From Desulfobacterales bacterium (lineage in GTDB: Bacteria; Desulfobacterota; Desulfobacteria; Desulfobacterales; JALSRD01): a stretch of DNA of 52,094 bases. The position numbers and the translations under genes were made by a program. The stretch lies in contig JALSRD010000063.1 of NCBI GenBank assembly GCA_026984935.1, forward strand, positions 1-52,094. The letters run 5' to 3'. Below, piece after piece: positions 44,667 through 52,094 of the stretch. Numbering within the stretch: the first letter of the stretch is position 1; each line of letters begins with the position of its first letter. The notes beneath the pieces are model-generated. The model saw only the letters and a program-made list of their open reading frames with translations. It was not told the DNA's origin and made no database searches.

Positions 44667-46169
44667 CTATCCTCCCATGGTCCCCAGCATGGGCACCAGC
44701 GCGGCGGCCATGCCGGCGATGGTCGAGATGGGGAAGAAACGCCGCGGCAGCGGGATGGACGGCAGGTACATGAGCCCCAGGGCCGCGGCGGCCACGGCCA
44801 GCGAAACCAGCGCCGCCGGACCGGCCCCGGTCAGGGCGGCCACGAGCAGGATGCACACCGCCGCCGCGATATGCAGCACGGCGGCCACCTCGGTGGCGCG
44901 CCCGGCCCCCAGCTTCGCCGGCAGACTGTGCACGCCGTTAAGCCGGTCGCTGTCGATGTCCATGATAGCGTAGATGATGTCCGCGCCGCTCATCCAGCAC
45001 AGCACGAAAAGCGCGAACACCAATGCCGGCGCGGAAAACCAGGGGTTGCCCGCTGCAGCCACGAAGGCGCACAGGGGGGCGATGGCCAGGCACAGCCCGA
45101 TGCCGAAGTGGCACAGCGCCGTGACGCGCTTCAGAAGCGAATAGCCCAGCAGGAAAATTAATGGCACGGGCGCCAGGGTCAGGCACCAGCCGCCCAGGAC
45201 GGCGCAGGCGGACAGGTAGAGCGTCAGCCCGCCGCCGGCGATGAGCAGGGCCGACCGGACCGAGAGGGCGCCGGTGGGCAGTTCGCGCGCCGCTGTGCGC
45301 GGGTTTTGCGCATCCAGCCGGCGGTCGAAGATGCGGTTGAAGGACATCCCGAAAATCCGCGCCCCGGCGGCGGCGACAATGATCAGCAGCATGATTTTAA
45401 AAGCGGGGAAATGCCCGTAGCCGCCCAGCCAGGCGCCTGCGAACAGCAGCGGCAGGCTGAATGCCGTGTGCTCGATCTTGGTGAAGCGCAGCAGTTTCTG
45501 CCAGGTGCCGGCCGCCGCCGGCTGTGAGCGCTGGCACACGCCGGCCTGTTTCCTGATTTCCGCCAGAAGGCAGTCGGCCACCTTTTGCGACACGCCGTCG
45601 ATGTTGGCCTGGAGCGCCTCGCGGCCGTCGTGGTCGGCCCGGTCGCTGACACCCTTGACGATGGCGCAGGGAAGGCCATACAGGGCGGCCACGCGGGCAA
45701 TGGCGGCGGCTTCCATGTCCACCAGCTGTGCCAGGCGGGAAAGGGTTTCTCTTTTTTGAGCGTCGAAAACCGGCTGGTCCACGGTCACGATGGCCGCGAC
45801 CGGCAGTGCGGGCCACCACGTCTCGTCGCAGGCCAGTGGCTGCGGTGCTGCCTGCGGCGGCGCCGTGTTTTCTTCGACGGCCTTTTGGATCCGCAGCACG
45901 GCGCCCGGGGAAATGCCGTCGTCGCTGACCAGCGCGCCGCAGATGCCGGCATGCACGATGCGCCGGCAGCGGTAGTGCTCGATCAGGCGCTGGGCGGCCA
46001 GGGCGGCGGCGACTTTGCCCATGCCGCTGACGGCCACCAGCAGCGGCGCATGGCTGTTTTGCGGCGCGGCGCGGTAGAGCGCCATCACGCGGTCTTGGAT
46101 GCGCCGGGCGGCCAGCTGCGCCAGCAACGGGGCGGCCTCGGCATGCGTGGCATAGATGATTCCGATCAT
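44667..46169 (-). CDS. Fusion: futalosine hydrolase (MqnB-like) and UbiA-family prenyltransferase (MqnP-like)
   Basis: A 500-residue protein in two parts. Residues 1 to about 205 are a nucleoside-phosphorylase-fold hydrolase: VSGMGKVAAALAAQ (47-60), GICGAL (75-80), the nucleoside-binding DMEAAAIA (151-158) and GVSDRAD (173-179). After a short linker, residues 225-500 form a membrane prenyltransferase with eight or so helices and two Asp-rich motifs, NRIFDRRLDAQ (278-288) and MDIDSDRLNG (403-412). These are two steps of one pathway that are normally separate proteins. The frame is continuous through the junction. ATGA overlap with mqnD. Confidence 0.88.
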   Translation of the reverse strand: MIGIIYATHAEAAPLLAQLAARRIQDRVMALYRAAPQNSHAPLLVAVSGMGKVAAALAAQRLIEHYRCRRIVHAGICGALVSDDGISPGAVLRIQKAVEENTAPPQAAPQPLACDETWWPALPVAAIVTVDQPVFDAQKRETLSRLAQLVDMEAAAIARVAALYGLPCAIVKGVSDRADHDGREALQANIDGVSQKVADCLLAEIRKQAGVCQRSQPAAAGTWQKLLRFTKIEHTAFSLPLLFAGAWLGGYGHFPAFKIMLLIIVAAAGARIFGMSFNRIFDRRLDAQNPRTAARELPTGALSVRSALLIAGGGLTLYLSACAVLGGWCLTLAPVPLIFLLGYSLLKRVTALCHFGIGLCLAIAPLCAFVAAAGNPWFSAPALVFALFVLCWMSGADIIYAIMDIDSDRLNGVHSLPAKLGAGRATEVAAVLHIAAAVCILLVAALTGAGPAALVSLAVAAAALGLMYLPSIPLPRRFFPISTIAGMAAALVPMLGTMGG

Positions 46170-47217: not shown

Positions 47218-48588
47218 ATGGCTAAAGTCCTGGTGTACGGCAGCGGCGGCAGGGACCACTGTCTGGCGGACAAGTATGCCGACAGTCAGCACGTGGACAA
47301 GGTGTTTTTCATGCCCGGCAATCCCGGTGTAGCGCACACCCCCAAGGGAAAACGCGGACTCATCGAACGGGTCGCGCCGGATGCGGCCGACGACTTCGAA
47401 GCGGTGGCGCGTTTCTGCCGGGAGCAGGCGGTGGACCTGGTGGACATCGGCTCTGAAAATCCGCTGTCGCGCGGCCTGGTGGATGTGCTCAACGCCCACG
47501 GCATCGCCACCGTGGGCCCGCAGCAGGAGTTTGCCAGGATCGAAAGCGACCGTGCCTTTACCGATTTTCTGCTGACAGCCGCCGGTGTGCCCAAGCCGGC
47601 TTACCGCGTTTTCAACGACCCGGACAAGGCCCGGCGTTACGTGCGCAACATCGGCTACCAGGTGGTGGTCAAGGCCAACGGGCTGGCCGCCGGCAAAGGG
47701 GCCCTGGTGTGCGACGACGCGGCGGCGGCGGAAGCGGCCGTGGATGCCATTATGGTGGAGAGGCGCTTCGGCGATGCCGGCCGGCGGGTGGTCGTCGAGG
47801 AGCGCAAGTACGGCAGCGAGATTTCCTTTTTCGCTTACCTGGACGGCCGCCACGTTATGCCGCTGCGCATGTTCTGCCAGGACTACAAGCCGGCCTTCGA
47901 TCCCGAAGACCATGAAACCATTGAGCGCTTCGGCGGCAATTTGAACACCGGCGGCACCGGCTGCTATTGCCCCCACCGGCTGGTGGGCGATGCACTGGTC
48001 AACCGCATCGTCCGGGAGATCGTCAACCCCACGGTGGAGGTGATCTACAACCGGCTTGGCTGGCCCTACAAGGGAGTGCTCTACTTCGGGCTCAACCTGG
48101 ACGACGACAACGCCCTGTCGGTGTTCGAGATCAACGTGCGCCACGGGGACCCGGAGTTCGAAGTCCTGGCGCGCAAGCTCAGCAGCGACCTGTTCGAAAT
48201 CGGCATGGCCGTCTGGGAAGGCAGACTGGACCGCGTGCGGCAGGTCTGGAATGCGCGCCACTACGTGGACGTCATCGCCATGGAGGGCCGCTCCAAGGCC
48301 TCGCGCGGCTGGAACCCGGGCTATCCCAAGCGTTACGGCAAGGGGCACGCCATTACCGGGCTCGACCGCCTGGAGCGCGGGCTGGCGGTATACTTCGCCG
48401 GGGTGGACGAGCACGACGAAAGGTCGCTGGTGACCTACGGCGGACGCGTGCTGCACCTGGTGGCCGGAGGGGATACGCTGGAGCAGGCCCGCCGCACGGC
48501 TTACGCCAACATCGAGAAGCTGGCCTTCGTGGATCACCGCCAAAACGGCGCCAACTGCATGCGCTACCGCCGCACCATCGGGCTGTAG
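47218..48588 (+). CDS. Phosphoribosylamine-glycine ligase homologue, divergent
   Basis: A 456-residue ATP-grasp protein related to PurD, longer than the usual 420-430 residues. It has [52 protein letters not shown] and [23 protein letters not shown]. Typical PurD proteins read GGREHAL, GPEAPL, NTGGMGAYSP and RFGDPE at these sites, so several substrate-loop residues differ and there is an insertion around residue 222-240. It may be a true but divergent PurD or a paralogue with another amine substrate. It stands alone, divergent from the mqn operon. Confidence 0.75.
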
Positions 48589-48601: not shown

Positions 48602-50902
48602 TCAACCCGCCGCCGGCGCGCTGGCCGGCAATAGCGCACAGGCGCCCTGGCGTGCCAGGTGTCCCAGCAGGTCCTGTTCCGCGCGCATGCGCGCGGCCTG
48701 GGCGGCGTCGGCGCCCACCACCATGACGCCGGCAAAGAAATGCCGGAAGACCAGGGGAACGCAGACGATGCCGGGCTTGTCCAGCAGGTGGGCCAGCTGT
48801 TCGTCCATGATCTCGGCCGGGTCATCGAAGGTGGTGACGATCCTGCGTTCTCGACAGCAGGCGGCCAACAGGCTGCGATCGCGTGCGGCGTGGATGCGCA
48901 GGCCGGCCTTTTCACCGGCCGGCGGGGCTTGGCAGGAAAGCGTCTCTGAACCTGGATCGTAGCGGAAAAACAGCGCCGGCGGCACCGAAAAGAGCAGCTG
49001 CAGCGTGCGGCTGATGGTTTCGCGCGCCATCCCGGGATCTTCGGCCTCCAGCACGGGCTGCAGGGATGCTCCCAGCAGCGCGTGTTCCCGCAGGATGCGC
49101 AGCACGGCGCGCTGGTGTTCGTCGTCCGCAGCCCGCCCGGCCGGTGAAGCCTCTGCCGCAGCCTCGAACCGTATATCCAGCCTGCGGGCGGTGTCGGCAA
49201 CGCTCTCCCAGGACTGAACCGCCAGGCGGCGGGCCGCAGCGGGCTGCATGGCCAGGATATACGCGCTTTCTTCCAGTCCGGCATCCGGCGGAGGCAGGCG
49301 GCGGCTGCACAATCTGTTGGCGGCATAAACGATTTTGACCAGGCCGAAGGCGTTGCGGATGGCGTCAGGCGGCGCGTGGTGGTAGCAGACGGCATCGGTC
49401 AGCAGCGGGGACAGGCCGCAGCGGGCCAGCAGCCGTGCACCGGCGCGTGCATGTTCGGTATGGCCGTGCCGGCATACGGCCTGCGGCGCGTTTTGCGACA
49501 GGCCGGCCGTGCGGCCAGGCGGCAGCAGCTTGCCCACATCGTGCAACAGGCCGGCCAGGTAGGCTGTCCGCCGGTCGTGGAAGCCGGTCTCCTGCGCCAG
49601 CAGGCGTGCCAGCAGGGCGCACTGCAGGCTGTGCCGCCACTGGGTTTTCAGCGCTTCGGGCGTCAATACGGCATCGCCGTCCAGATGCGCAAAGTGCACC
49701 GTGTGCAGCGCCAGGGTTTCCACCGTTTTCCTGCCCAGCCGCGTGACGGCGTCTTCGAGTACAGCTGTTTTTGCATGCGTCTTGCCTCTGCGGATGTGGT
49801 CCAGCGCGAGAAGGTTGGCGCACAGTGCGGCGTCGCGGGCGGCCCGGTGGGTGATTTCCTCCAGCGCGGCGCCCGTGCGGCAGGCGCGCATGCAGGCCAG
49901 TGCCGTTTGCGGCAGCACCGGCAACAGGGGCTCGGGAAGCCGCAGCCGGCTGTGGGCGGCGCCTTCAGGGGCTTGCGCCGGTGGCGGCACGCGGTCTGCG
50001 GCCGGCAGCGGCGGCGGGCGGTGCGCGTCCTTCGGCGGCTGTCGGCGGTCACGGGGCTGGCCGGCGGGCCTGCTGTCTCCGGGCGCCGGCAGCTTCAGGG
50101 GGCGGCCCATGGCCTGGGCCCAGCGCTGCCAGTAGGATCCCGCCGTGATGCCGGGCGCCTGTTGCGGCGGCGTTGCGAGCAGCTTTCCGGCCATGCGGGT
50201 CAGCTCGGCGGACGCCGGACAGTCCGGGTACAGCGAGATGAAAGGCTGCTGGACACTCAGGGCCGCCTCCACCTGCGCATCATCTGCCACAACGCCCAGA
50301 AGGGATGTGTCGGCTTGCAGGTAGTGCCGTACGGCGGCGGCGAACTTGGCGAACACCTGTCTGCCCTGGGATGTCCGCCGGCAGCGGTTGACCACCACGT
50401 GCAGGGCGCCGTCGAAGCCGTTTCCCAAAAGCAGCTTGAGCAGGGCGTAGGCGTCGGTGACCGCCGTGACTTCCGGTGCGATCACCAGCAGCACCTCGGG
50501 CGATGCCAGGCCGAATGCGATCACATTCCTGGAGATGCCGGCCGAGGTGTCGATGAGCAGAAAGTCGTATTCGCGCATGCCTTCCAGCGCCTGGACCAGA
50601 CGCCCGGTGTGCCCGCTGTCCAGGTCGGCCATGGCGGCGATTCCCGAACTTCCCGGGACGATGTCCAGGCCTTCGGCGGCCGGAATGACCACATCCGCCA
50701 GATCCAGGTCCCCGCGGACCACCTCCCTGAGCGTCTTTTCGGGATGCAGCCCCAAAAGCAGATCCACGTTGGCCAGGCCCAGGTCGGCGTCGAACAGGCA
50801 CACGCGCTGCCCCCGCCGGGCCAGGCAAAGCGCCAGGTTGACGCTGATGCTGGTCTTGCCGACGCCGCCTTTGCCGCTGGTGATGGTAATGGTTCGGGCC
50901 AT
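48602..50902 (-). CDS. FlhG/MinD-type ATPase fused to HDOD and GAF-like domains
   Basis: A 766-residue protein. Residues 1 to about 250 are a ParA/MinD ATPase with deviant Walker A SGKGGVGKTS (9-18), DADLGLANVDLLLGL (39-53) and LLIDTSAGIS, which is closest to FlhG, the flagellar-number regulator. A Pro/Arg-rich linker (about 275-330) leads to an HDOD/HD region (about 335-560) with AGLLHDVGKLLPPG and later HGHTEHARAGARLL. The C-terminal 150 residues look GAF-like (LFFRYDPGSETLSC to MVVGADAAQAARM). I know no common family with this order. It faces the sigma28-like promoter divergently and ends 13 nt from the purD-like gene. Confidence 0.82.
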   Translation of the reverse strand: MARTITITSGKGGVGKTSISVNLALCLARRGQRVCLFDADLGLANVDLLLGLHPEKTLREVVRGDLDLADVVIPAAEGLDIVPGSSGIAAMADLDSGHTGRLVQALEGMREYDFLLIDTSAGISRNVIAFGLASPEVLLVIAPEVTAVTDAYALLKLLLGNGFDGALHVVVNRCRRTSQGRQVFAKFAAAVRHYLQADTSLLGVVADDAQVEAALSVQQPFISLYPDCPASAELTRMAGKLLATPPQQAPGITAGSYWQRWAQAMGRPLKLPAPGDSRPAGQPRDRRQPPKDAHRPPPLPAADRVPPPAQAPEGAAHSRLRLPEPLLPVLPQTALACMRACRTGAALEEITHRAARDAALCANLLALDHIRRGKTHAKTAVLEDAVTRLGRKTVETLALHTVHFAHLDGDAVLTPEALKTQWRHSLQCALLARLLAQETGFHDRRTAYLAGLLHDVGKLLPPGRTAGLSQNAPQAVCRHGHTEHARAGARLLARCGLSPLLTDAVCYHHAPPDAIRNAFGLVKIVYAANRLCSRRLPPPDAGLEESAYILAMQPAAARRLAVQSWESVADTARRLDIRFEAAAEASPAGRAADDEHQRAVLRILREHALLGASLQPVLEAEDPGMARETISRTLQLLFSVPPALFFRYDPGSETLSCQAPPAGEKAGLRIHAARDRSLLAACCRERRIVTTFDDPAEIMDEQLAHLLDKPGIVCVPLVFRHFFAGVMVVGADAAQAARMRAEQDLLGHLARQGACALLPASAPAAG

Positions 50903-51311: not shown

Positions 51312-52094
51312 ATGCATATCCTGATCGCCGAAGATGATCCGTCATCGCGGCTGCTGCTCGAAAAAATGCTGGCAAAGCAGGGGCACACCACGGTGGCTTG
51401 TGAAAACGGCCTGCAGGCGCTGTTGGTGTTTCAACAAAAGCCGGTCAGAATGATTATTTCGGACTGGATGATGCCCGAATTGGACGGCATTGGCCTGGTA
51501 ACGAAAATCCGTGGGCTGCAATCGGCGGATTATGTTTACATCATCCTGCTGACCACCAACAGCGAAAAGAGCGATGCCGTGCGGGGGCTCAATGCAGGCG
51601 CCGACGATTACATGACCAAGCCTTTCGATCCCGCGGAGCTTGCGGCGCGCATCCGCTCCGGGGAGCGCATTCTGGCGCTGGAAGACGACCGCAAGAAAGC
51701 GGTGGCACAGATCCTGAAGTCCGAGAAAATGGCCGCCATCGGCACTTTGACGGCCGGCGTGGCCCATGAGATCAACACCCCGCTGCAGTACCTGGCCGGC
51801 AACCTGCGCTTTCTCCGCGAGGCTTTCGGTGAACTGGATACGCTGCTGGCATCCGGTGATACACAGGCCTCGGAGAAGGGTGCGGCGGGCCAAGCCGTCG
51901 ACCTGGCTTATTTAAGGGAGGAAATTCCGCCGGCCCTCGAGCAGTCCCTCGAAGGTGTGGCCCAGGTGACGCGCATCGTGCAGATCCTGCGCGATTACGC
52001 CGCGCACAAACCCGGCGGCCAGGCCGGCACCGTGGACCTGAACCAGCGCATTGAAAATTCGCTGGCCGTGGCCCGCAATGCCTGGCAGCCGGTG
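51312..52094 (+). CDS. Receiver-histidine kinase hybrid (3' end outside window)
   Basis: The first 261 codons of a gene that runs off the window. Residues 1-118 are a receiver domain: acidic EDD at 7-9, phosphoacceptor Asp in ISDWMMPELDG, and Lys in TKPF. A linker helix leads to a HisKA domain with TAGVAHEINTPLQYL, the H-box of histidine kinases. Receiver at the N-terminus and kinase behind it is the reverse of the usual hybrid order. The kinase catalytic domain would follow beyond 52094. The ATG lies behind a weak GGTTTAGG purine stretch. Confidence 0.9.
   Translation, partial: MHILIAEDDPSSRLLLEKMLAKQGHTTVACENGLQALLVFQQKPVRMIISDWMMPELDGIGLVTKIRGLQSADYVYIILLTTNSEKSDAVRGLNAGADDYMTKPFDPAELAARIRSGERILALEDDRKKAVAQILKSEKMAAIGTLTAGVAHEINTPLQYLAGNLRFLREAFGELDTLLASGDTQASEKGAAGQAVDLAYLREEIPPALEQSLEGVAQVTRIVQILRDYAAHKPGGQAGTVDLNQRIENSLAVARNAWQPV

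Follow-up and report, generated by a model that had tools for sequence, protein, structure and literature searches.

A gene on the reverse strand of the window (the whole stretch of 52,094 nucleotides of Desulfobacterales DNA that was analysed) encodes, in one chain, an FlhG/FleN-like ATPase and an HDOD-GAF signalling module. The ATPase is FlhG/FleN-like, yet it belongs to a clade, here given the label X, that is separate from flagellar FlhG, and the pairing of this ATPase with HDOD is conserved between genomes and is not a local accident. The explanation that is tentatively favoured, with somewhat less than even confidence, is that the protein is a membrane-cycling clade-X ATPase fused to a signal module and acting on a partner such as an HDOD-GAF kinase. 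The gene and the parts of its product are as follows.

48602..50902, reverse strand: whole fusion gene, 766 amino acids plus stop; relatives aligned over residues 1-757 or 1-758.
50168..50902, reverse strand: FlhG/FleN-like ATPase, residues 1-245, from Pfam, structure searches, alignment, and the AlphaFold2 model.
50105..50143, reverse strand: predicted helix, residues 254-266, at the position of the FlhG/MinD membrane-targeting sequence, from the AlphaFold2 model and hydrophobic moment.
49949..50074, reverse strand: disordered linker, residues 277-318, with pLDDT below 50.
49178..49924, reverse strand: HDOD domain with helical tail, residues 327-575, from Pfam (327-511), alignment, and the AlphaFold2 model.
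49046..49144, reverse strand: long helix, residues 587-619, from the AlphaFold2 model.
48632..49036, reverse strand: GAF-fold domain, residues 623-757, from models, the match to solved GAF domains, and Pfam on relatives.

The gene is a single open frame with an ATG start and no internal stops; no clear Shine-Dalgarno run was seen upstream of the ATG on inspection by eye. GC content by codon position holds the order 3>1>2 across all four segments, including the linker, where positions 1 and 3 are almost equal. Against Pfam, the window protein matches a ParA/CbiA-type ATPase (residues ~3-241), HDOD (residues 327-511, E 6.7e-24, 84.9 bits with a cut-off of 22.9), and HD (residues 423-524). The AlphaFold2 model of the whole protein, made from 38 sequences (the window protein and its relatives), has a mean pLDDT of 85.5 and a pTM of 0.58, which is low, and the relative placement of the domains is therefore not fixed. 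Pfam, the model, and the relatives all bear out the sequence-only reading in its proposal of one polypeptide with an FlhG-like ATPase, an HDOD, and a GAF-type domain. The same reading had allowed for two genes split near 49,900-50,100; this, like an assembly frameshift, is ruled out because distant relatives keep the identical open frame. The ATPase-HDOD junction is in one frame in G001, in the longer relatives of families f42 and f24, and in family f106, where a kinase is attached.

The ATPase carries the motifs GKGGVGKT (a deviant Walker A, residues 10-17), FDADLGLAN (37-45), and DTSAG (118-122). These ATP-binding motifs are identical across nine aligned fused proteins (the window protein and eight others), an alignment from which L134:651-3158 was left out, a fused relative with GKEGVGKT in place of GKGGVGKT. 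The best solved structures are FleN (2.4e-51) and FlhG (6.1e-44), with solved MinD far weaker (archaeal MinD 3.1e-28, E. coli MinD 2.6e-17), and a fold search agrees with FlhG/FleN (TM 0.92 to 4rz2, normalised to the target length). When 86 ATPases were placed in a tree, the window protein grouped in a 57-row clade (support 96/96) that holds stand-alone and fused relatives and no FlhG rows; it is this clade that is called X, and one protein labelled X, L150, falls outside it. The FlhG/FleN group has 18 rows and weak support (85/68), and the deep branch order is likewise weak. True MinD was also considered and rejected. The window ATPase shares the superfamily and the deviant Walker A of MinD/ParA, and is likely to cycle between forms, but it scores 112.7 bits against a MinD equivalog cut-off of 212.9. 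Grouping with non-flagellar MinD types, which had been raised as a possibility from the sequence, was not seen, the four MinD rows lying outside the window clade in the tree.

In FlhG, an N-terminal helix with DQAxxLR activates FlhF, as described in a review (PMC12826062). An N-terminal extension of this type is absent from the window protein because Walker A begins at residue 10, and X proteins in general begin almost at Walker A, although not all do (L085 is one exception). That the entire extension is missing counts for more than the lack of the motif, because DQAxxLR was found, with a pattern made for this analysis, in just 7 of 16 FlhG-group loci from the genome of the window and its relatives; the FlhG of the same genome as the window has the extension and lacks DQAxxLR. 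Beyond the ATPase, residues 254-270 have a hydrophobic moment of 0.79, which 0.2 % of shuffles reach. The same test gave 2.5-11 % of shuffles in three relatives, and 70 % and 34 % for two FlhG helix controls, which are not distinctive by this measure.

In the HDOD half, H424, HD454-455, H484, HH508-509, and N529 are identical in all nine aligned fused proteins. An active HD-GYP enzyme would need an Asp at the last metal-binding place, which is occupied by N529 here. The conserved His/Asp set with Asn529 suggests that a predicted binding site has been retained, HDOD itself being described as non-catalytic (PMC6543031). The C-terminal part of the window protein is below the cut-off for the Pfam GAF families (GAF_3, E 0.034); relatives approach these families, and L130 is over the cut-off (23.4 bits, with 22.4 required). 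When the last 187 residues were modelled alone (pLDDT 84.4), the best solved matches were GAF domains (5w10, E 2e-7), and the same model also matches an HD-GYP structure (4mcw). In the models, the GAF domain and the long helix suggest that a ligand may be sensed by a dimer. Neither HisKA nor HATPase_c was matched in the window protein by Pfam at E 1.

The genome of the window also encodes a complete HDOD-GAF-HisKA-HATPase kinase (L039:6872-9010, contig C64), the gene of which adjoins a hybrid kinase gene. Residues 326-759 of the window protein share the HDOD-GAF part with this kinase at ~30 % identity; the window protein differs from such kinases in carrying an N-terminal ATPase and in lacking the kinase half. 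The likeness of the HDOD-GAF part to the HDOD-GAF-histidine kinase family had been missed earlier, when the domains themselves were correctly named.

The ATPase-HDOD fusion is present in at least 10 of 291 genomes of the class at E <= 1e-54 (G000, G193, which has it twice, G222, G157, G291, G147, G226, G001, G194, and G206; the frames in G001, G194, and G206 end at contig ends), and in at least 6 of 395 genomes of the phylum at E <= 1e-62 (G000 and five of family f106). Both are minimum counts, since the frame was followed as far as the HDOD only for matches in which it was noticeably long. The protein of G001 is 48 % identical over residues 1-534, up to its contig end, and those of five other class genomes, none of them that of the window, align over residues 1-757 or 1-758 with 37-39 % identity. 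In the five f106 genomes the chain extends into a histidine kinase (HisKA and HATPase_c), giving 1029-1057 amino acids; the kinase half was confirmed by Pfam in four of the five, and the fifth, L142, stops at a contig end. The next gene after three of the f106 fusions belongs to a single similarity cluster, the member at L157 being REC-PAS-HisKA-HATPase-REC. In family f24, the kinase-less fusion adjoins both an HDOD-GAF-kinase gene and a hybrid kinase gene of that same cluster (L128, L129, and L130, with neighbour domains from Pfam on L128 only). A search of a viral contig collection gave no relatives, and a separate genome-contig collection gave one weak relative.

Tree comparisons bear on the number of origins of the fusion. 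One clade of kinase-less and kinase-bearing fusions is rejected in the HDOD-GAF tree (p-AU 0.0066) and not rejected in the ATPase tree (p-AU 0.19), in tests that are affected by long branches and with L109 too short for the HDOD-GAF tree. Kinase-less fusions alone are not rejected as one clade in either (p-AU 0.32 in the HDOD-GAF tree, 0.53 in the ATPase tree), and the window protein and that of G001 sit apart from the f24/f42 fusions in both trees. If the rejection in the HDOD-GAF tree holds, the fusion has arisen repeatedly, and this would argue strongly that the partners act together.

Under the favoured explanation of a membrane-cycling ATPase with a signalling partner, ATP would make the protein dimerise and attach to the membrane by the helix at residues 254-266, by analogy with FlhG and MinD as presented in the review (PMC12826062). 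The HDOD-GAF module would sense a small ligand and set the ATPase cycle, or would be the cargo of that cycle, and the window protein may pair with the complete HDOD-GAF kinase of contig C64, placing or gating it. In its most general form, which is possible if doubtful, this would be a class of spatially cycling sensors, in which a MinD/FlhG-type ATPase moves a two-component sensor (HDOD-GAF, in some lineages together with a kinase) to and from the membrane, making output dependent on position, or in which the ATPase is reset by the signal; in this scheme, the window protein would be the kinase-less partner of a full HDOD-GAF kinase. Cargo placement is the task of ParA/MinD-type ATPases, many of which are termed orphans in a published account (PMC10241942) because their partner is not identified. 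Here, the partner is encoded within the ATPase chain itself or frequently by the adjacent gene, as an HDOD signalling domain and in one family a whole kinase, and the link between sensing and positioning becomes testable within one protein.

The gene neighbourhoods of X were compared at 25 loci, being those for which flanks were fetched and genes resolved (L071, L076, L048, and L164 were dropped, and several reach contig ends); the set is part only of the X matches in the class and phylum lists. An HDOD gene, called with a profile built from an alignment made in this study, is within 3 kb of X at 15 of the 25, on the same strand in 13. From the density in the genome of the window (10 HDOD genes in 3.9 Mb), an HDOD neighbour would be expected at ~2 % per locus, an excess that is only indicative because the loci are partly close kin and not independent. 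At eight of the 25 (L077, L137-L140, and L161-L163, spanning families f2, f35, f42, f106, and f143), the order is a DUF4388-MshEN-T2SSE gene (PilB/GspE-like), X, and an HDOD gene, with Pfam for T2SSE run on L075, L077, and L137. Because X lies between these two genes in part of the relatives, a pilus or type II secretion-like machinery would be the leading guess for the effector, judging from gene order.

Taken further, this arrangement could mean that the role of the ATPase is to position a type IV pilus or a machine of the type II secretion kind (or the PilB/GspE-type ATPase of such a machine), with HDOD-GAF reporting a signal, which is considered rather unlikely for the window protein. In addition to the gene order, fusions of X to PilZ (L078, Pfam) and to cNMP-binding and DUF4388 domains (L079, Pfam; L073 and L082, similarity) and the position of X behind a sub-cut-off MshEN match in L085 are in its favour. 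However, the DUF4388-MshEN-T2SSE partner is absent from the genome of the window and from G001 at E 1e-100. In a sample of 96 genomes of the order, X was scored as present in 16, at E <= 1e-60, with weaker X-like genes (e.g. in G030 and G063) scored as absent; 12 of these 16 are without the partner, the other four being G002, G014, G064, and G080. Eight of the 12 carriers of the partner in this sample are without X at the same threshold. The PilM pilus marker is present in 96 of 96 genomes and is therefore useless for correlation with X. MshEN is reported to be a c-di-GMP receptor (PMC5013675); the complete motif is present in 1 of 17 T2SSE-type partner proteins, and so no c-di-GMP sensing is claimed. 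At three further loci (L083, L084, and L086), a stand-alone X is followed on the same strand by metallo-beta-lactamase-fold and purH-like genes (Pfam on L083 only).

It is unlikely that the window protein is a second, sensor-controlled flagellar FlhG, which upon binding of a GAF/HDOD ligand would set flagellar number or place, or act like FleN on the flagellar master regulator. FleN and FlhG are its closest solved relatives, and the HDOD proteins SadB (PMC6543031) and GsmR (PMC11004494) have reported effects on flagella or swimming. Flagellin is found in 14 of 16 X genomes and in 38 of 80 others of the order sample (Fisher p 0.005), and this enrichment speaks for a link of X genomes, with stand-alone or fused genes, to motile life. 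FlhA is present in all ten X genomes with few contigs, nine of them of family f36; in these same genomes, though, the 13 copies of X are separated by 376-2103 kb from the closest flhA of their contig, with rounded genome sizes taken as the circle length, including for genomes of 2-6 contigs. The genome of the window has a separate flhG on contig C65, the product of which is 38 % identical to the window ATPase. It adjoins an SRP54-type GTPase gene taken as flhF (FlhF-like), and FlhA and a flagellin are also encoded on C65, while there are no flagellar genes beside the fusion gene in the window.

FlhA and Flg_hook are both missing in 5 of 15 fusion genomes (G157, G291, G226, G659, and G374), which are 85-93 % complete; absences in these drafts may be gaps. 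The calls for the two markers were concordant in 18 of 18 genomes tested, and neither marker was found in G035 (stand-alone X, 97 % complete) or in G064 (84 %). Flagella therefore seem to be dispensable for keeping the gene, allowing for draft gaps. Along with the missing extension and the separate clade, these results reject a plain flagellar FlhG: where an FlhG linked to HDOD and GAF had been read from the sequence, the architecture is supported and the flagellar identity is not. As a caution, FlhG-like ATPases of clade X are not all to be called flagellar.

It is highly improbable that the window protein is a decaying by-product, a kinase fusion minus its kinase half and with no separate function, since, although the kinase half is missing from the window and f24/f42 forms, the window HDOD match is the weakest among the fused proteins scanned (others 1e-41 to 1e-63), and Walker A is altered in L134, all nine aligned fused proteins share the same ATPase and HDOD motifs, and three families (f1, f24, and f42) retain the kinase-less form, with two copies in G193.

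Compared with known systems, the window protein shares with FlhG/FleN (YlxH) the sequence, the fold, the Walker motifs, and a helix after the ATPase at the membrane-targeting position, which is predicted in the window protein; it differs in its clade, in lacking the DQAxxLR extension and flagellar neighbours, and in the attached HDOD-GAF. In a 2025 review, FlhG is called a single domain protein (PMC12826062). SadB and other HDOD motility regulators have in common with the window protein an HDOD domain in a signalling protein. SadB, likened here by its published description only, is reported to bind c-di-GMP and carries a YbaK-like domain where the window protein has the ATPase and GAF (PMC6543031). 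A further report (PMC11004494) deals with separate genes in this connection. The arrangement had not been recognised as a described family from the sequence, and this is consistent with the literature searched, in which, with limited reach into subscription journals, no description of an ATPase-HDOD fusion and no experiment on any member of the family was found. As far as searched, the parts are of known kinds, and the joined family, the kinase-bearing form, and the T2SSE-X-HDOD order are undescribed.

Within the window, the fusion gene does not share an operon with signalling genes. A purD-type gene with phosphoribosylglycinamide synthetase domains (47218-48588, forward strand) is convergent with it, with 13 bases between the ends. 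On the other side, a divergent REC-HisKA gene (51312-52094, forward strand), which might be a two-component partner, is cut by the contig end. Elsewhere, a 500-amino-acid frame (44667-46169, reverse strand) combines a phosphorylase-superfamily domain with a UbiA prenyltransferase and adjoins a menaquinone-biosynthesis gene and a UbiD gene; it is presumably a fusion in the futalosine pathway.
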